A stretch of DNA of 64,000 bases. Source: a virus. Below, piece by piece: positions 11,088 through 58,248 of the stretch. The stretch spans positions 1-64,000 of IMG/VR virus record IMGVR_UViG_3300025093_000013; one strand, given 5' to 3'. Made by a program: the position numbers and the translations under genes. Position 1 is the stretch's first letter. Each line of letters opens with the position of its first letter. The notes under the pieces are model-generated. The model had not been told where the DNA came from. It ran no database searches and saw only the letters and a list, made by a program, of their open reading frames with translations.

Positions 11088-11089
11088 TA

Positions 11090-11098
11090 CTATAATAG
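11090..11098 (+). promoter_or_regulatory. CTATAATAG promoter for the zinc-ribbon/helicase operon
   Basis: CTATAATAG lies between the tail-spike stop and the next ATG; TATAAT (11091-11096) ends five bases before ATG 11102. No TTGACA-like -35 is seen at the usual distance. Confidence 0.6.
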
Positions 11099-11101
11099 GT
11101 C

Positions 11102-11533
11102 ATGGCTATCTACGAGTTCATCTGTCATGACTGTGAAGTAATTTGGGAACGGGAAGCGCCTATGAGTAAAGCGCCTTCCCGTTCTCGTTGTCCTGAGTGT
11201 AAAAAGCTTAAGAACAGGCATTGGGGCGATGTCCCTGTAATGTTTAATGGCAACGACTACTACACTAACAAGCGCAAGCAGCACAAACTTGTCTACGAAG
11301 ACAAGGCTAAGGGCAAGGAGGTTATGGAAAACCTACTTGATGCCACGAAGCGAATGGGTGAAGAAACTAAATGTCCATACAAACAATATGGGCTTACTGA
11401 AGAAGGCGTCGAAGCCTACGGTGGTGTACGAAAAACAGAGGCTGATAAAAAAATGTCCGAGAAAATGGGTGACAAGATGAAGGAATCAGTCTACAATAAC
11501 AGCCAAGCGTACCGAAACCTTGGCAAACGATAA
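11102..11533 (+). CDS. FmdB-type zinc ribbon protein
   Basis: 143 residues. The N-terminal 55 residues match the FmdB putative regulatory zinc ribbon: YEFICHDC (Cys 8 and 11) and RCPECKK, followed by WGDVPVMFNGNDYY. The rest is charged and helical (KKMSEKMGDKMKE). Small zinc ribbons of this type occur in phages next to structural or replication genes; the function is unknown. Directly follows the CTATAATAG promoter with almost no leader. Confidence 0.75.
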   Translation: MAIYEFICHDCEVIWEREAPMSKAPSRSRCPECKKLKNRHWGDVPVMFNGNDYYTNKRKQHKLVYEDKAKGKEVMENLLDATKRMGEETKCPYKQYGLTEEGVEAYGGVRKTEADKKMSEKMGDKMKESVYNNSQAYRNLGKR

Positions 11534-13663: not shown

Positions 13664-14437
13664 ATGGCTATTGACCTAAACGCGCTTCGTGCGAAGCACC
13701 AACAACTTACTAACCCTAAAACTGGTGGTGGAGATCAGGACTTCCTGAACAAATTCTACCAAGTAAAGGAGGGCGAGGCTTACCTTCGTATCCTTCCTGC
13801 TCCTGCGGATTCTGACAAGAACTTCTACGCAGAGACTAAGATCCACCGTGTTCCTCAACCTGATGGCTCGGTGAAGAATGTACACTGCCGTAAGGTGCAT
13901 GGGGAGAAGTGCCCTCTCTGTGACCTGTACTACGGTCTGTGGAAAACTGGTTCCAAGGAGGACGAGGACCTTGCTCGGCAAATCAAGCCCCGTGCTCGCT
14001 ACTACCTGAACGCCTATGACCGTGAGAACGAGGAGGTCAAGATCTTCTCCATCGGCGTTATTCTCTTCCAGAAGATTGTTGAGACCATGATGGATCCCGA
14101 CTACGCTGATCTTTTCGAGGAGTCTGAGAATGGTATCCTTGATACCGAGATCGGCCACGACTTCAAGCTTCATATGAAGAAGGAAGGACAATGGCCCAAG
14201 TACGATCAGTCGATGTTCCGCCCCAAGGCAACATCGCTTGGCAGCAAGAAGATGATCTCAGAGGTGATGGAGTCTCTTCACGATATTCACTCCCTTGTGA
14301 AGCTTGAAGAGTACGATGATGTGAAAGAGGCGGTTCTCAACCTGCGGCCTGAGCTTATGCCACGGGAACGCACTCTTCAAGAGGATTCTTCGGATGCAGG
14401 TTCCGATGATGATTTTACTAAGAGGTTAATGTCATGA
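13664..14437 (+). CDS. 32: gp32-type single-stranded DNA-binding protein
   Basis: 257 residues. Zinc-binding segment HCRKVHGEKCPLC at about residues 73-85, an OB-fold-like core with RYYLNAYDRENEE, and a short acidic C-terminal tail (SSDAGSDDD) as in T4 gp32, where it contacts replication partners. The N-terminus (NALRAKHQQLTN) resembles the basic cooperativity arm. Coats ssDNA for replication and UvsX recombination. Confidence 0.88.
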   Translation: MAIDLNALRAKHQQLTNPKTGGGDQDFLNKFYQVKEGEAYLRILPAPADSDKNFYAETKIHRVPQPDGSVKNVHCRKVHGEKCPLCDLYYGLWKTGSKEDEDLARQIKPRARYYLNAYDRENEEVKIFSIGVILFQKIVETMMDPDYADLFEESENGILDTEIGHDFKLHMKKEGQWPKYDQSMFRPKATSLGSKKMISEVMESLHDIHSLVKLEEYDDVKEAVLNLRPELMPRERTLQEDSSDAGSDDDFTKRLMS

Positions 14438-14991
14438 AACTTATCAATGTAATCGCAGCCTCAGTCCTAGTGTTCGGTACTACATCGTGCGCTGTTCTGA
14501 AGGAACTTATTGGTGACGGTACAGTCTTTACCACAGCCGATCAACTTGCCGAAGGTCAACAGGGCGCTGTCATCCCTTGGGAACAGCTTCCTGAGGAGAT
14601 CAAGGCTAAGATTCCTGAGGGCACTCAGGTCGTTGTAGCAGACAAGGAGCAACTTAAAGAAGATGCTGCTTATATCGCTGCTACTCCAGACGAGGGTGAC
14701 ATCGGGGCCATGATCGACGCTGGCTTTGGTATCGCAAGTACCTTCCTTCCTGGCCTTGCTGCATGGGAGGGCGTTGTAACGATGTTCTCTCAGCGTAAGC
14801 GCAAGCACTATGTTAAGGCAGCCAAGTCCCTTGTACCACACAAGGGAGATCCTACAGTTGATGTAGGTGGGACTGTCAAGGCTGTTGCTTCTGCACTTGG
14901 CCTAGCACACTCAACTGAGGCATCAAAGATTGCTGCTGACGATGAGCATGAGTACGAGTACGAAGAAGTACCCGAAGAGTCTGTTTCGTGA
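14434..14991 (+). CDS. Putative phage lipoprotein
   Basis: 185 residues. Signal peptide with hydrophobic core (IAASVLVFG) ending in lipobox TTSC, so Cys19 should be lipidated. A glycine/alanine-rich hydrophobic stretch near 95-115 could insert in a membrane; the C-terminus is acidic (DDEHEYEYEE). Starts with ATGA overlap to gene 32. No family recognised. Phage lipoproteins often block superinfection or assist lysis; either is only a guess here. Confidence 0.65.
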   Translation: MKLINVIAASVLVFGTTSCAVLKELIGDGTVFTTADQLAEGQQGAVIPWEQLPEEIKAKIPEGTQVVVADKEQLKEDAAYIAATPDEGDIGAMIDAGFGIASTFLPGLAAWEGVVTMFSQRKRKHYVKAAKSLVPHKGDPTVDVGGTVKAVASALGLAHSTEASKIAADDEHEYEYEEVPEESVS

Positions 14992-15013: not shown

Positions 15014-15064
15014 CCCGACGAAGGAGGTGATCCTACTAGAGTGTTCTAGAGGGATCCTGTCGGG
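15014..15064 (+). ncRNA. Hairpin displaying a 16S rRNA anti-Shine-Dalgarno complement
   Basis: In the 3' untranslated region of the gp32/lipoprotein genes. CCCGAC (15014-15019) pairs with GTCGGG (15059-15064), GATCC (15029-15033) with GGATC (15052-15056), and CTAGA (15036-15040) with TCTAG (15045-15049) around a GTGT loop. Between the outer two helices the 5' strand carries nine unpaired bases, GAAGGAGGT. AAGGAGGTGATCC (15021-15033) is a 13-base perfect complement of the conserved 16S 3' end. No reading frame of useful length follows. A ribosome-binding RNA is inferred. Confidence 0.5.
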
Positions 15065-15135
15065 CAGCGAAGATTAGACAGTCTAGAAACTCGAAAAAAG
15101 CGTTAGACGGGCGCTTTAAAAATCTCAGGCTGGCA

Positions 15136-15144
15136 CTATAATAG
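15136..15144 (+). promoter_or_regulatory. CTATAATAG promoter of the sugar operon
   Basis: CTATAATAG stands 30 bases before the first gene of the glycan cluster and directly before a hairpin. No convincing -35 box. Confidence 0.6.
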
Positions 15145-15168
15145 GGAGACGGTTCAAAGCCGTCTCCC
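15144..15168 (+). promoter_or_regulatory. 5' leader hairpin of the sugar operon
   Basis: Perfect 9-bp stem GGGAGACGG (15144-15152) / CCGTCTCCC (15160-15168) with a 7-base loop. It would form the extreme 5' end of the operon transcript if the CTATAATAG box is used, and it ends five bases before ATG 15174, leaving no Shine-Dalgarno. It may stabilise the RNA or act as an attenuator; the T content downstream is too low for a strong terminator. Confidence 0.6.
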
Positions 15169-15173
15169 TTCTT

Positions 15174-15758
15174 ATGTTTAAGCAGTTTCAAAGACAGTCC
15201 TTCTGGTCTGGTTTACTACAAAAAGCCTTAGCAAAAGGAACTATTCATGATTCTCTAGGAACAGGAATAGATCACTGCTTATTCAATGCTATTGAGTACA
15301 GGCATATTTCTCTAATAGAAAAACTAATACACAGAGGTAATCTGGATCCTATCAAGACTCCTTTAACCACTGATTCTAATCTCAAAGATCATCTAAAGAA
15401 TTCTAATACTAAGGTTTTAGATGTTGCATGTGGATATGGAAGATTCGCTAAATACTTCAACCCACACAACTACATGGGGGTTGACAGTTGCCAGTCTTTC
15501 ATATCTCTGGCAACTGAAAATAATCCAGAGCATACTTTTTTAGTAGCGGATGTTAGCCACCTGAACTTTGATGATAAAGAGTATGATCTTGGGATAGTAT
15601 GTGGTTTTAGGCGAATGATCTGTGATTCAGATGGGCTAAAGGAGTGGAATAAGATTAACAAAGAAATTAAGAGAGTATGCAAGAAGGTTTTATACCTTGA
15701 ATATACTAACGGAAATTCATATTTCTTACTAGATGACTACGAGATTTACAATGGATAA
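15174..15758 (+). CDS. SAM-dependent methyltransferase (class I)
   Basis: 194 residues. SAM-binding motif I is VLDVACGYGRFAKYF near residue 81-95, followed by an acidic strand end (MGVDS) and ADVSHLNF. First gene of the sugar operon, so a methyl transfer onto a sugar or sugar-linked substrate is likely; the substrate cannot be read. Its stop overlaps the next start. Confidence 0.75.
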   Translation: MFKQFQRQSFWSGLLQKALAKGTIHDSLGTGIDHCLFNAIEYRHISLIEKLIHRGNLDPIKTPLTTDSNLKDHLKNSNTKVLDVACGYGRFAKYFNPHNYMGVDSCQSFISLATENNPEHTFLVADVSHLNFDDKEYDLGIVCGFRRMICDSDGLKEWNKINKEIKRVCKKVLYLEYTNGNSYFLLDDYEIYNG

Positions 15759-24771: not shown

Positions 24772-24780
24772 CTATTATAG
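24772..24780 (+). promoter_or_regulatory. CTATTATAG promoter of uvsX
   Basis: TATTAT (24773-24778) ends five bases before ATG 24784, so no Shine-Dalgarno fits between. An AGTCAAATTT motif sits just upstream, also present at 31335 and 34682. Confidence 0.55.
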
Positions 24781-24783
24781 ACT

Positions 24784-25758
24784 ATGCGCGATGATGTAAT
24801 CAAGTCCCTCAAAACTGCGGGACTTCTTTCCGATCAGAAGCTTGACCTTGGCTTCGTTTCAACAGGGTCCTACGCTCTCAACAAGATCTGCTCTGGTGAC
24901 TACCAAAAGGGAATCCCCATTGGTATGATTACGCAGTTTCATGGTGAGGCATCCACAGCTAAGACTGTATTTGTTACCCATATCCTTGCCAACGCACAGA
25001 AGCAAGGGTATCATACAGTTCTTATTGACGCTGAGAATGCTTACAACTCAGAGTTTGCATCAACACTAGGTATTGATCCAAACAACCTGATCTACGCAGC
25101 ACCTCATACTTTGGAGGATTGCTTTGCTACCATGGAAACTCTCATCAGAGAGATTCGTGAAGTTGATAAAGAGACTCCAATTGTTATTGGCTACGATAGT
25201 ATTGCCGTATCACCTAGCAAAGAGGAGATGACAAAGACTGATTATGAATCACACCAAATGACAGGTGCGATGAGAGCTAAGGTAACGGGTGCTTGCCTAC
25301 GCAAGATCAACCCACTACTGCGCGAGTTTGGTGTTGCTCTGGTCATTGTGAACCAGATCCGCAACAAGGTGGGTGTGATGTATGGTGATCCTAGAACGCC
25401 AGCAGCAGGAGGTAAATCTCTTGAATACTACCTCGGTCTGAACTTCATGACCTCTGCTCCAAAGAATGAGAGGATACAAGACGATAATAAAAGCGTGGTA
25501 GGTATCCGTGGTAAGGTAGCTAATGTAAAGAACAAAGTGACTAAACCTTTCCAAGATGCAGAGTTTGAACTATTATATGATGTAGGTCTAACTCCGCACT
25601 ATGGAGTGCTTGATCTTCTGGTCAAGGACAAGATAGTAGAACGGTCTGGTGCTTGGTATCAATTTGGCGAAGAGGCCAAGTTTCAAGCCAAGACATTCAA
25701 CGAAGGGTTTATGACTGACGATAAGTTCAAGACACTAAGGGAGAAGATAGGACTATGA
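24784..25758 (+). CDS. uvsX: UvsX/RecA-type recombinase
   Basis: 324 residues. Walker A is GEASTAKT at 54-61 (Ala in place of the second Gly, as the T4 UvsX loop also departs from the consensus), Walker B VIGYDSIAV near 139, and loop regions HQMTGAMRAK and NQIRNKVGVMYGDP. Catalyses strand exchange for recombination-dependent replication with gp32 and gp46/47. Confidence 0.92.
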   Translation: MRDDVIKSLKTAGLLSDQKLDLGFVSTGSYALNKICSGDYQKGIPIGMITQFHGEASTAKTVFVTHILANAQKQGYHTVLIDAENAYNSEFASTLGIDPNNLIYAAPHTLEDCFATMETLIREIREVDKETPIVIGYDSIAVSPSKEEMTKTDYESHQMTGAMRAKVTGACLRKINPLLREFGVALVIVNQIRNKVGVMYGDPRTPAAGGKSLEYYLGLNFMTSAPKNERIQDDNKSVVGIRGKVANVKNKVTKPFQDAEFELLYDVGLTPHYGVLDLLVKDKIVERSGAWYQFGEEAKFQAKTFNEGFMTDDKFKTLREKIGL

Positions 25759-29616: not shown

Positions 29617-29625
29617 TACACAACA

Positions 29626-29634
29626 CTATAATAG
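29626..29634 (+). promoter_or_regulatory. CTATAATAG box before the small membrane protein
   Basis: TATAAT (29627-29632) ends six bases before ATG 29639. No -35 seen. Confidence 0.5.
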
Positions 29635-29638
29635 AACT

Positions 29639-29797
29639 ATGAAAAATCTTACTAAACTTTGTTACTTCGCTGGTTATGCCAGCATTCCCATCTCAGTGCT
29701 TACTTACTTTCAGCACGCACCCAAAGCTGGGATCTTTATTGGACTTTGGGTTCCTACCCTTCTACTATCAGGTATGATCGCTAGGGACTCTAGCTGA
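29639..29797 (+). CDS. 52-residue membrane protein
   Basis: Two hydrophobic stretches: CYFAGYASIPISVLTYF and AGIFIGLWVPTLLLSGMIA, so probably a two-helix hairpin in the membrane. Lies between two tRNAs and directly after a CTATAATAG box. Function unknown. Confidence 0.6.
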   Translation: MKNLTKLCYFAGYASIPISVLTYFQHAPKAGIFIGLWVPTLLLSGMIARDSS

Positions 29798-30052: not shown

Positions 30053-30081
30053 TACACTAGTATATTCCCTATGAGGAAATA

Positions 30082-30090
30082 CTATAATAG
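30082..30090 (+). promoter_or_regulatory. CTATAATAG promoter of the secreted beta-helix gene
   Basis: TATAAT (30083-30088) ends five bases before ATG 30094; no ribosome site fits between. Confidence 0.55.
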
Positions 30091-30093
30091 TGC

Positions 30094-30915
30094 ATGAAGA
30101 AATTTCTCGCAGCACTAATGCTACTCGCGCCTGTTACGCAGGCACAAAATGTCATCACCACTGATGGCACCTTCATTGAAAACCAGACATTCGAAGGCAT
30201 GGTCCAAGTTCGGGCTCATAATGTAACCCTTCGTAACTGTACCTTTAACAGTGGACCTCTTGCTCCAAACTGGTATGGTGTAACGAATGTTTACAACAAT
30301 GAGGACGGCACTCCCAAGTCCACTAATTTCCGTCTTGAGAACTGCACTATCCGTGGCGGTTGCACTGGAGTTTATGTTCAGTACGCTACTGTCATCGGAT
30401 GCGACATTCAAGAGACTGGTAAGGATGGTATGAAGATTGGAGGCGGCGGAAACTGCATGATCCGCAATAACTATGTTGCTCGCATTGGCCTACAAGTTGG
30501 TGCCCATGCTGATGCCCTACAATCTGTTGGTGGTAGTCATGTGTTTGTCATTGGCAATCACTTTGATATTCCCGTCACCTTTGCTGACGAGAATGGTTAT
30601 CTTAGTAACGCCTGTATCATTCTACAATCTCAGGTTAAAGAGATTCACGACTGGTATATTTGGGGCAATCACTTTGAGGGAGGTAGCTACACGATCTACA
30701 TCAAAGATAAGGACCATCCTAACTACCCTGGGATTCAGCCTCCTTATAGGATTCGCATGAACAACAATACCTTTGGTTATGATTACCGTTATGGTCTAGC
30801 ATCTATTGATACTCACCCCACCATCCAAATCAACTTCAATGTGATGGATGATGGAGTTCCACTAACAGGAGGTCCTTGGCCCATCAATACTTGGGACAAC
30901 TGGCCTCAATGGTGA
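30094..30915 (+). CDS. Secreted beta-helix (pectate-lyase-like) protein
   Basis: 273 residues. A classical signal peptide (KKFLAALMLLAPVTQAQ) is followed by a parallel beta-helix with rungs such as VTLRNCTF and FRLENCTIRGG. The segment from residue 20 parallels the tail-spike segment near 570 (ITT-x-G, VEN/IEN, V-x-A-N/H-x-VT-x-RNC), and HADALQ near 138 with GNHFDIP matches HADVWQ/WNHFDLP there. So it is a free, exported relative of a tail-spike domain. Probably acts on extracellular polysaccharide. Confidence 0.75.
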   Translation: MKKFLAALMLLAPVTQAQNVITTDGTFIENQTFEGMVQVRAHNVTLRNCTFNSGPLAPNWYGVTNVYNNEDGTPKSTNFRLENCTIRGGCTGVYVQYATVIGCDIQETGKDGMKIGGGGNCMIRNNYVARIGLQVGAHADALQSVGGSHVFVIGNHFDIPVTFADENGYLSNACIILQSQVKEIHDWYIWGNHFEGGSYTIYIKDKDHPNYPGIQPPYRIRMNNNTFGYDYRYGLASIDTHPTIQINFNVMDDGVPLTGGPWPINTWDNWPQW

Positions 30916-55367: not shown

Positions 55368-55380
55368 TATATAATATATC

Positions 55381-58248
55381 ATGGCAGACCAAATACCTTT
55401 AAGAATAGTTACTGTCTCAGGTCAACCCTTTATTGGAGAGTTTCAATCAGGTGACACCGTTGGAGTCGTTCATGGTGGAACTGGTGCATCAAGTATAGCT
55501 GGTCTAAAAACCGCCTTAGACTATAACCTAACTGGTTTAGACGATGTTGCTGTAGGGTTCCCTGATGCGTTATCAGCTAACCAAATTATTGTTTGGAACG
55601 GGACTGCTTGGGTAAACGAATACAACGACAAGACTGAGATGCGTGTTCGGAACGGCAACGAAGTTGCCATGAGCAAGGGTGATGTAATTGCCATTAAAGA
55701 TTCTCAGAACGCTAATCTTGTAAATGTTATCCTAGCAGATGCATCTCAAACATCTGCTATGCCTGCTCTTGGTGTTCTTGAGCAAGACCTTGCTGTAGGT
55801 GAAGAGGGTATTGCAATTACTTTTGGCAAGGCTCAGGGTCTTAATACATCGGGTCTTACAGAAGGTGCAACTGCTTATGTGAGTCCTACAACTCCAGGGG
55901 GTATCACTACTACTAAACCCACCTCTGGAGATCACTTTATTCAAAACATAGGTATCGTTATGAGAGCAAATGCTTTTAACGGTGCTATTAAGGTTACTGG
56001 TATTGGTCGTGCTAACGATATACCTAACGCGGAGATTACGACACTATCAGGTGATGCTGATTATGTTTACATTGATGATGGTGGTGTTTGGAAAAAGATT
56101 ACTCCCGCAAACCTAGGTGTAGGTAGTGGAGGTGGAGGATCCGCATCCTTATCAGGTCTAACTGACACTAATATTTCATCTCCTTCACATAATGAATCTC
56201 TTGTTTGGACATCCTCCACAGGAGAGTGGATCAATGCTAGTGTCGCAGGTGGTGGAGGAGTAACGGATCACGGGCTACTTACAGGTCTAAGCGATAACGA
56301 TCACCCACAGTATGTTCTAACTACTATCAATAATGATCTGTCAACTCTTGTAACAAACATAGAAACCTCTACAGTTGATATATCAGGTTACATAGCTGCC
56401 AATGAAACCACATGGTCAACTGACAACGATACAACAGATCACACTGCTCTGAGTAATATAGGCACAAACACTCACGCCCAGATTGATAGTCACATAGCCT
56501 CAGGTTCTGTACACTTTACAGAAGCGAGCATTGATCATGGATCTATTGCTGGTCTAGGTGACAATGACCATCCTCAGTATGTTCTTTCTGCTACTAATAA
56601 TGCTCTATCAAGCCTTGTAACGAGTGTAGAAACATCTACAGTAAGCCTTTCTAGCTATATTGCGGCTAATGAGACTACATGGTCAACTGACAATGACACG
56701 ACTGATCACACTGCCTTAAGTAATATCGGTACTAACACCCATGCTCAAATCGATAGCCATATTGCTTCAGGATCCGTACACTTCACAGAAGCGAGTATTG
56801 ACCATGGATCTATTGCTGGACTAGCAGACAATGATCACCCTCAGTATGTTCTTTCGGCAACTAACAACGATCTGTCTACGCTTGTCACTAGCGTTGAAAC
56901 ATCTACTGTAAGCCTTTCAAGCTATATCGCTGCTAACGAAACAACTTGGTCCACGGATAATGACACAACAGATCATACTGCCTTAAGTAATATAGGAACT
57001 AATACCCACGCTCAGATTGATAGCCATATTGCGTCTGGGTCTGTACACTTTACAGAAGCAAGCATTGACCACGGATCTATCGCTGGTCTTGGTGATAACG
57101 ATCACCCTCAATATGTTCTCTCTGCTACCAATAATGCTCTATCAAGCCTTGTAACGAGTGTAGAAACATCAACAGTTAATCTATCTGGGTATATTGCAGC
57201 TAACGAGACAACTTGGGCTACTGATACTGACACCACTGATCACACTGCTCTAAGTAATATCGGTACTAATACACACGCTCAGATTGATACTCATATTAGT
57301 AACCACACCACCTCAGCAAATACTTGGAATGGTACTTACCAGACGGTATTTGATAACTCGGGTAGTTGGGGTGGTGGAGGAGGAGTCACCGATCACGGCG
57401 CTTTAACGGGTCTAGCCGACAACGATCACCCGCAGTATGTGCTATCTTCTACTAACGCTGCGCTAAGTTCTCTTGTAACAGATACCACAGACGCAAGCAC
57501 ATTGTTCAGCGGAAACATTACTGTAACAGGAACTACTGCAACTCATATAGGAACTCTAGGAACTACTGACGCTGCTACATTCGGATTACAATCAAGCGGT
57601 AACACTTCCATAATTGCACCATCTCTAATATTGAGTGCGACTACAGCCTATCAATTCCGTAAGAATGGTAGCACTACATTCACTGATACAGACTTCCCTC
57701 AGTCTTGTAGGGATTGGGACTCTACCTACAACACTGTTCTTAACAGTTCAGGTTCTTGGGGTGGTGGAGGCGGTGGAGGCGTAGCCGCTGGTATTACTGT
57801 TGTTAACACGGGAACAGATAATATTAACTCTACTGGTGGTGCCCTTGTTCCATTAGATGTAACCGCTGGATATCCTGCATATGGAAGTTATGCTACAGAC
57901 TTTAGTTACACTCCTGGTAATGCCTATGTAACTATCAACACAGCAGGAACTTACGAGGTAACATTTAATGTTGGTTACATTTCAACAACCACTCGATGGA
58001 ACGGTGTATTAAAAATATACAAAGGTACTGGTGGAGCATCCCCAAGTGCGTGGATTGGTTATGGAGCAGGCAAGATGGGTTATGTAAGAAACTCAAGTGG
58101 TCATAACGAGTCCTCTCTAATTGTAACCTGTCTTGTAACCTGTTCCGCTAATGATACTGTAGGTGGTCATGTAATTAACGAAGCCACTAGCGGAACATGT
58201 ACTCTGGTTGCTAACGAAACATTCATGACAATTAAGAGGATGTCTTGA
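55381..58248 (+). CDS. Tail fibre with 89-residue tandem repeats
   Basis: 955 residues. N-terminal 270 residues contain GGTGASS and ITFGKAQGLNT typical of fibre attachment regions. Four tandem repeats (about residues 294-650) each carry DNDHPQYVL and TNTHAQIDSHI, plus a fifth partial one. Glycine runs (GSWGGGGG) follow, and the C-terminal 150 residues (NTAGTYEVTFNVGYIS) look like a C1q/TNF-type jelly roll, likely the receptor-binding tip. Confidence 0.82.
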   Translation: MADQIPLRIVTVSGQPFIGEFQSGDTVGVVHGGTGASSIAGLKTALDYNLTGLDDVAVGFPDALSANQIIVWNGTAWVNEYNDKTEMRVRNGNEVAMSKGDVIAIKDSQNANLVNVILADASQTSAMPALGVLEQDLAVGEEGIAITFGKAQGLNTSGLTEGATAYVSPTTPGGITTTKPTSGDHFIQNIGIVMRANAFNGAIKVTGIGRANDIPNAEITTLSGDADYVYIDDGGVWKKITPANLGVGSGGGGSASLSGLTDTNISSPSHNESLVWTSSTGEWINASVAGGGGVTDHGLLTGLSDNDHPQYVLTTINNDLSTLVTNIETSTVDISGYIAANETTWSTDNDTTDHTALSNIGTNTHAQIDSHIASGSVHFTEASIDHGSIAGLGDNDHPQYVLSATNNALSSLVTSVETSTVSLSSYIAANETTWSTDNDTTDHTALSNIGTNTHAQIDSHIASGSVHFTEASIDHGSIAGLADNDHPQYVLSATNNDLSTLVTSVETSTVSLSSYIAANETTWSTDNDTTDHTALSNIGTNTHAQIDSHIASGSVHFTEASIDHGSIAGLGDNDHPQYVLSATNNALSSLVTSVETSTVNLSGYIAANETTWATDTDTTDHTALSNIGTNTHAQIDTHISNHTTSANTWNGTYQTVFDNSGSWGGGGGVTDHGALTGLADNDHPQYVLSSTNAALSSLVTDTTDASTLFSGNITVTGTTATHIGTLGTTDAATFGLQSSGNTSIIAPSLILSATTAYQFRKNGSTTFTDTDFPQSCRDWDSTYNTVLNSSGSWGGGGGGGVAAGITVVNTGTDNINSTGGALVPLDVTAGYPAYGSYATDFSYTPGNAYVTINTAGTYEVTFNVGYISTTTRWNGVLKIYKGTGGASPSAWIGYGAGKMGYVRNSSGHNESSLIVTCLVTCSANDTVGGHVINEATSGTCTLVANETFMTIKRMS
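56260..57330 (+). repeat. Four 267-270 bp tandem repeats in the tail fibre gene
   Basis: Units begin at 56260, 56530, 56797 and 57064. Protein identity is very high while many third-codon positions differ; two units share a stretch of about 40 identical bases near 56595 and 57130. Confidence 0.85.

Follow-up and report, generated by a model that had tools for sequence, protein, structure and literature searches.

A conserved non-coding hairpin downstream of gp32 in one phage clade is predicted to display a complement of the 16S rRNA 3' tail and may dock 30S subunits

Shine-Dalgarno (SD) sequences that lack a start codon and hold the 30S ribosomal subunit are already known from a few 5' untranslated regions (UTRs) and from artificial RNAs. 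STAB-SD elements, found in cry3A mRNA and in further 5' UTRs of Gram-positive bacteria, are translation-silent, SD-like sequences that pair with the 3' end of 16S rRNA; they are thought to hold the 30S subunit on the mRNA, and such docking can protect the message (PMC4113751). The STAB-SD elements known to date are 5'-UTR elements situated near a processed 5' end, where the bound 30S subunit blocks RNase J, a 5'-3' exonuclease, and so stabilizes the RNA. Artificial transcripts on which SD-like motifs are arranged in rows deplete the free 30S subunits of Escherichia coli (Mawn et al. 2002, as summarized in PMC3986360).

Here we describe a start-less SD-like site in the DNA of uncultured T4-like phages. 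The window, that is, the whole stretch analysed, comprises 64,000 nucleotides (positions 1 to 64,000) of IMG/VR virus record IMGVR_UViG_3300025093_000013, which has 112,473 bases in total. The record represents a myovirus distantly related to T4: the terminase shares approximately 34-36% identity with its counterparts in an uncultured phage and in large Vibrio phages, and tail sheath and portal matches are present. The features of the locus are given in Table 1.

Table 1. Features of the gp32-lipoprotein locus and of the non-coding block downstream of it (window coordinates)
Feature	Position	Strand	Evidence and remarks
gp32-like single-stranded DNA-binding protein gene	13664..14437	+	Pfam gp32 PF08804, E 2e-17
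Lipoprotein-like gene	14434..14991	+	ORF overlapping gp32 stop; signal peptide with Cys-19, hydrophobic stretch
Conserved non-coding block, whole element (~108 nt)	15014..15121	+	103-106 of 109 columns identical in lineages L122, L125, L126, L143 and L144; monophyletic
Hairpin	15014..15065	+	Folding and cross-lineage pair table; outer helix CCCGAC/GTCGGG, upper helices GATCC/GGATC and CTAGA/TCTAG, GTGT loop
13-base 16S tail complement, AGGAGG core in predicted bulge between two helices	15021..15033	+	Exact match; folding prediction
Second stem-loop, AAAGCG...CGCTTT	15096..15117	+	Invariant loop; stem-loop invariant in all lineages
Promoter-like pair, TTTAAA - 16 bp - TATAAT	15115..15142	+	Spacer sequence varies, length 16 in all lineages
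Phage late-promoter-like motif, CACTATAATAG	15134..15144	+	Shared at this junction by carriers and by relatives lacking the block
Terminator-like hairpin overlapping promoter start region	15143..15172	+	Compensatory changes in relatives; weak U tract

The lipoprotein-like gene, which has no match in Pfam or PHROG, is kept beside gp32 in relatives. The 13-base match lies 30 nt past its stop codon and approximately 140 nt before the next gene (15174), upstream of that gene's own promoter. The site had been placed in the 3' region of gp32; it is indeed downstream of gp32, but the lipoprotein-like gene intervenes, which puts the site in what is presumably the 3' UTR of an operon formed by gp32 and the lipoprotein-like gene. 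Because the block is situated between this operon and a conserved terminator hairpin, plus-strand transcription across it is expected, and we infer the transcription and abundance of the element solely from this layout. In the window a methyltransferase gene (15174-15758) separates the promoter/terminator from a glycosyltransferase gene, which in the other carrier lineages comes directly next.

The sequence AAGGAGGTGATCC pairs at all 13 positions, with no mismatch, with GGAUCACCUCCUU, the single-stranded 3' tail of E. coli 16S rRNA (positions 1529-1541). This tail is conserved near-universally, and the host of the phage is assumed to share the E. coli sequence. The 13-mer occurs once in the window and once in the whole record, against a chance expectation of approximately 0.0025 (window, both strands, first-order Markov estimate); none of the shuffled sequences contained it, and the second-longest complement of this tail within the window spans 10 bases. 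The original prediction of a complete anti-SD complement with no gene behind it was thus correct on both counts. The remainder of the block pairs with 16S rRNA no better than shuffled sequences do. An octamer in the second stem-loop, GACGGGCG (15106-15113), complements the decoding site (16S positions 1400-1407), a match whose length is within chance.

Within 100 nt 3' of the 13-mer, the only start codons (ATG, GTG, TTG or CTG) open GTG-TTC-stop, at a spacing of 13 nt, and CTG-SGSED-stop, at 29 nt, and no start 5-10 nt downstream opens a conserved frame. An ordinary ribosome-binding site or small ORF was rejected, since the starts are out of range and indels break the frames. Translation of a micro-ORF, as in a minigene or leader-peptide type of device, might use GTG-TTC-TAG or, if the hairpin loops out, CTG/TTG-Ser-Gly-Ser-Glu-Asp-stop. 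It would be in keeping with the invariance of GTG-TTC-TAG and with substitutions in the SGSED frame that are synonymous in four lineages; moreover, hairpins shorten the SD-AUG spacing in T4 genes 38 and 25 (PMC3014915). We nevertheless regard such translation as very unlikely, because 13 nt is a long spacing that looping would make too short, the second frame is altered by a 2-nt deletion in L122-L124, and CTG is a poor start.

Based on folding predictions, the 13-mer is part of a hairpin in which a bulge between two helices shows the SD core, and this presentation is predicted in all lineages. The core had been proposed to be unpaired: AAGGA is mostly so, with unpaired probabilities of approximately 0.7-0.99, but the last two G residues are unpaired only about half of the time (0.4-0.5). 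In the L125/L144 lineage the third-position C-G pair of the outer helix has been lost and pairs flanking the bulge have been gained (G-U became A-U, a further U-A pair was added and, in L125, A-C became A-U), and in L125 the predicted bulge is exactly AGGAGG. For the window sequence, the energy computed for co-folding with the 16S tail is -32.2 kcal/mol versus -23.3 kcal/mol for the hairpin alone, and the corresponding values in relatives are -29.8 to -34.9 versus -19.9 to -23.8 kcal/mol, so that pairing with the tail is predicted to be favoured by approximately 9-11 kcal/mol.

Folding does not single out the plus strand, as hairpin z-scores are -2.1 to -3.9 for the plus strand and -3.0 to -5.1 for the minus strand. 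The minus-strand sequence is CTAGAACACTCTAGTAGGATCACCTCCTT, and an antisense hairpin followed by GGATCACCTCCTT could mimic 16S helix 45 with the anti-SD tail, thereby masking SD sites or titrating factors. Such an RNA would fold at least as well as its plus-strand counterpart, and the late-promoter motif, being nearly palindromic, might serve that direction. We judge this highly improbable: the flanking genes are both on the plus strand, and a weak minus-strand terminator, CGCTTTTTT, separates the 13-mer from the possible promoter. Strand-specific G-U pairs across lineages also fit the plus strand more, several being compatible with that strand only and one with the minus strand only. On the minus strand a T run comes after the second stem-loop, which would then resemble a weak terminator.

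To establish the distribution of the block, viral contigs were searched first with gp32, which yielded 35 loci, and next with a lipoprotein alignment, which yielded 80. Nine viral contigs carry the element in addition to the window, in the same place each time and with the 13-mer and TACTAGAGTGTTCTAG unchanged; patterns designed on the middle and on the far end of the element match the same nine contigs. In every carrier the 13-mer and the flanking stems are kept together, and stems without the 13-mer, which would have told against the original prediction, were sought among the relatives and not found. The conserved unit is larger than the segment first delimited (15014-15064): it follows the lipoprotein-like stop, precedes a combined late promoter/terminator, and occurs in one clade only. 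In relatives outside this clade with readable junctions the block is absent, both the 13-mer and the far end being missing; there the lipoprotein-like stop is followed by the late promoter and terminator hairpin, mostly within approximately 20 nt, or by another short gene. The lipoprotein tree places the carriers together in a single group (support 97/99), which requires one change. Since the carriers are monophyletic and the non-carriers lack the block, it is best read as a single, discrete gain in one clade.

When viral contigs were scanned with exact and relaxed patterns, the element turned up at these gp32 loci only, all other hits being chance sites or unrelated coding sequence, and it was found in none of the annotated phage records scanned. 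Two matches to the relaxed pattern in bacterial genomes proved unrelated. A site in a Mu-like phage (L167, reverse strand, around 3702, and L174) is probably a chance match to the scan pattern; here AAGGAGGTGATCTACCTCTAG immediately follows a stop codon and abuts an intrinsic terminator, start codons are lacking nearby, and it is possible that this is an independent start-less SD in a 3' UTR. Against Rfam, the window matches tRNAs only; the best local matches at the element are far below the thresholds, and a known RNA family was therefore rejected. The consensus of CC2171 (a Caulobacter sRNA, RF01867) likewise contains AAGGAGGUGAUCC, but with 13.5 bits against a 75-bit threshold it is not a relative by these data, and its site could be an ordinary ribosome-binding site, with a GUG 7 nt on.

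The block is conserved far beyond the synonymous sites of the adjoining genes. In the comparison with L143, 104 of 109 block columns are identical, against 138 of 256 third codon positions in gp32 and 103 of 182 in the lipoprotein-like gene; with L125 the figures are 103 of 109 for the block and 176 of 257 for gp32. Across L122, L125, L126, L143 and L144 the gp32 third positions are 54-83% identical. A block that is approximately 95% identical where gp32 third positions are near saturation (54%) is under strong purifying selection, and the selected sequence is non-coding: reading frames across the site are closed, and the others are disrupted by 1-2 nt indels. Among the five lineages sampled, the 13-mer is no more conserved than its neighbours, since nearly the whole block is invariant.

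The 13-mer might also be a matter of chance, or the relic of, for example, a sequence encoding Glu-Gly-Gly-Asp-Pro. In viral contigs GAAGGAGGTGATCC has 120 sites (L001-L120), 90 of them inside sense ORFs and 13 resembling ribosome-binding sites, and it is frequent mainly because it encodes this peptide; scans for SD-like 14-mers need to allow for such coding sites. A relic is scarcely credible here, as no long open frame runs through the site in any lineage and the conservation is far above that of synonymous sites.

Part of the conservation may belong to a promoter and thus have a reason at the DNA level. The TTTAAA - 16 bp - TATAAT pair occurs once in the window (0.06 expected), and because its spacer length is constant despite a varying sequence, the block may also supply a -35 region and an A-tract to a promoter that in relatives looks -35-less. 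In the extreme case, the whole block would be an upstream control region (A-tracts, the -35-like TTTAAA and inverted-repeat operators) through which host sigma-70 could use the downstream promoter, and the 13-mer would be incidental. The invariant spacer length and the CTAGA-N4-TCTAG dyad are consistent with this. However, TTTAAA matches only four of the six positions of the -35 consensus, and a control region would account for the 3' edge of the block and not for a 13-base match 80-100 bp upstream, so we consider this reading fairly unlikely. The terminator hairpin is a real structure, because three pairs have changed on both sides in relatives. A regulatory sRNA derived from the 3' UTR would be a conserved, structured RNA with its end at this terminator; the block is conserved and predicted to fold, and the U tract of the hairpin is weak. 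Promoter and terminator overlap (15134-15175) in an arrangement kept at this junction in most relatives and across dozens of phages: the -10 element runs straight into the terminator hairpin, with which the downstream glycosyltransferase mRNA would consequently begin. This mRNA has no SD sequence.

A bulged, unpaired GGA(G) could alternatively be the target of a protein, either one resembling CsrA/RsmA or a RegB-like endonuclease that processes the mRNA. AAGGAGGU fits ANGGANGU, which we take to be the CsrA-type core. The sites processed by RegB in T4 likewise expose GGAG in the mRNA of a T4-like phage, but most of them are in the translation initiation regions of early genes (PMC3014915), whereas the present site is start-less and in a presumed 3' UTR. 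No match to CsrA (PF02599) was found in the record, nor any to RegB (PF10715), the latter search being weak because its control was silent; a phage-encoded bS21 was also sought in the record and not found. The block has one exposed GGA region, unlike CsrB-type sponges with their several looped GGA motifs, and a protein site would leave unexplained why the 16S match continues through UGAUCC. We therefore think a protein-binding or cleavage site unlikely.

The exact match, its display and the missing start codon are together what a start-less docking site needs. The reading that we favour, at a probability of roughly 0.4, is that the block is a structured RNA element in the 3' UTR of the gp32-lipoprotein mRNA that docks 30S subunits and acts mainly in cis. 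The bulge would show the SD core, and the flanking arm would complete the 13-nt match to the 16S tail; a free 30S subunit could then dock on the hairpin through its anti-SD tail without starting translation. Once docked, it might serve as a shield or roadblock that alters decay of the flanking mRNA or separates that mRNA from the next operon. This reading infers transcription of the block, binding of the 30S subunit and an outcome in cis. A protein-binding role or one at the DNA level would account for these sequence data as well.

Titration of 30S subunits in trans would be a possible by-product of docking. The original prediction went further and made it the function: an abundant RNA derived from the 3' UTR would titrate free 30S subunits, SD-dependent translation would fall, and leaderless phage messages would continue. 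The exact complement and the predicted display suit such a decoy too, and its premise of leaderless-type starts in the phage gained support. Among ORFs of at least 40 amino acids in the record, TATWATW ends 2-8 nt before ATG in 14 cases, as compared with 2-6 at shifted distances. A near-palindromic, late-promoter-like ACTATWATAG is found 5-8 nt before ATG at 11088-11104, 24774-24786, 29624-29641, 30080-30096 and 55370-55383, and likewise in L176-L178, a placement that implies mRNAs without leaders, and a single such motif could drive both genes at several divergent pairs. It also counts for a decoy that small marine cells contain few ribosomes and would be easier to titrate.

Against this, SD-like pairing is found at approximately 30-45% of the phage's ORF starts, above background (a rough figure, from simple gene calls), so that a strong decoy would hurt the phage's own genes too. 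There is one natural site per RNA, whereas the expressed synthetic transcripts of Mawn et al. (2002), which have the proposed capture of free 30S subunits in common with it, bear rows of motifs. A decoy further depends on an RNA abundant enough to engage a large share of free 30S subunits, and the block was gained once, in one clade, even though relatives share the late-promoter type. Literature searches for a phage RNA that targets the anti-SD found nothing direct. We accordingly hold a cell-wide decoy to be distinctly unlikely, and docked 30S subunits more likely act on the element's own mRNA.

Docking in cis is the action proposed for STAB-SD elements, and two of their features recur here, the 16S complementarity (13 of 13 bases) and the lack of a start at a usable distance. 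The phage element differs in being 3'-untranslated or intergenic, in lying inside a conserved hairpin and in the length of its match. It is not at a 5' UTR or processed 5' end, as it follows a stop codon and precedes the promoter of the next gene; it is therefore STAB-SD-like in its proposed action and not a member of that group.

The element is short and self-contained. If the docking reading is true, it would be a natural, strongly selected and structured version of a start-less SD in a phage 3' UTR, and a clean case in which to ask whether ribosomal subunits are captured by phages. If a decoy operated, it would be the RNA counterpart of removing the anti-SD tail. Capture of this kind could protect an mRNA or bias translation towards leaderless messages.
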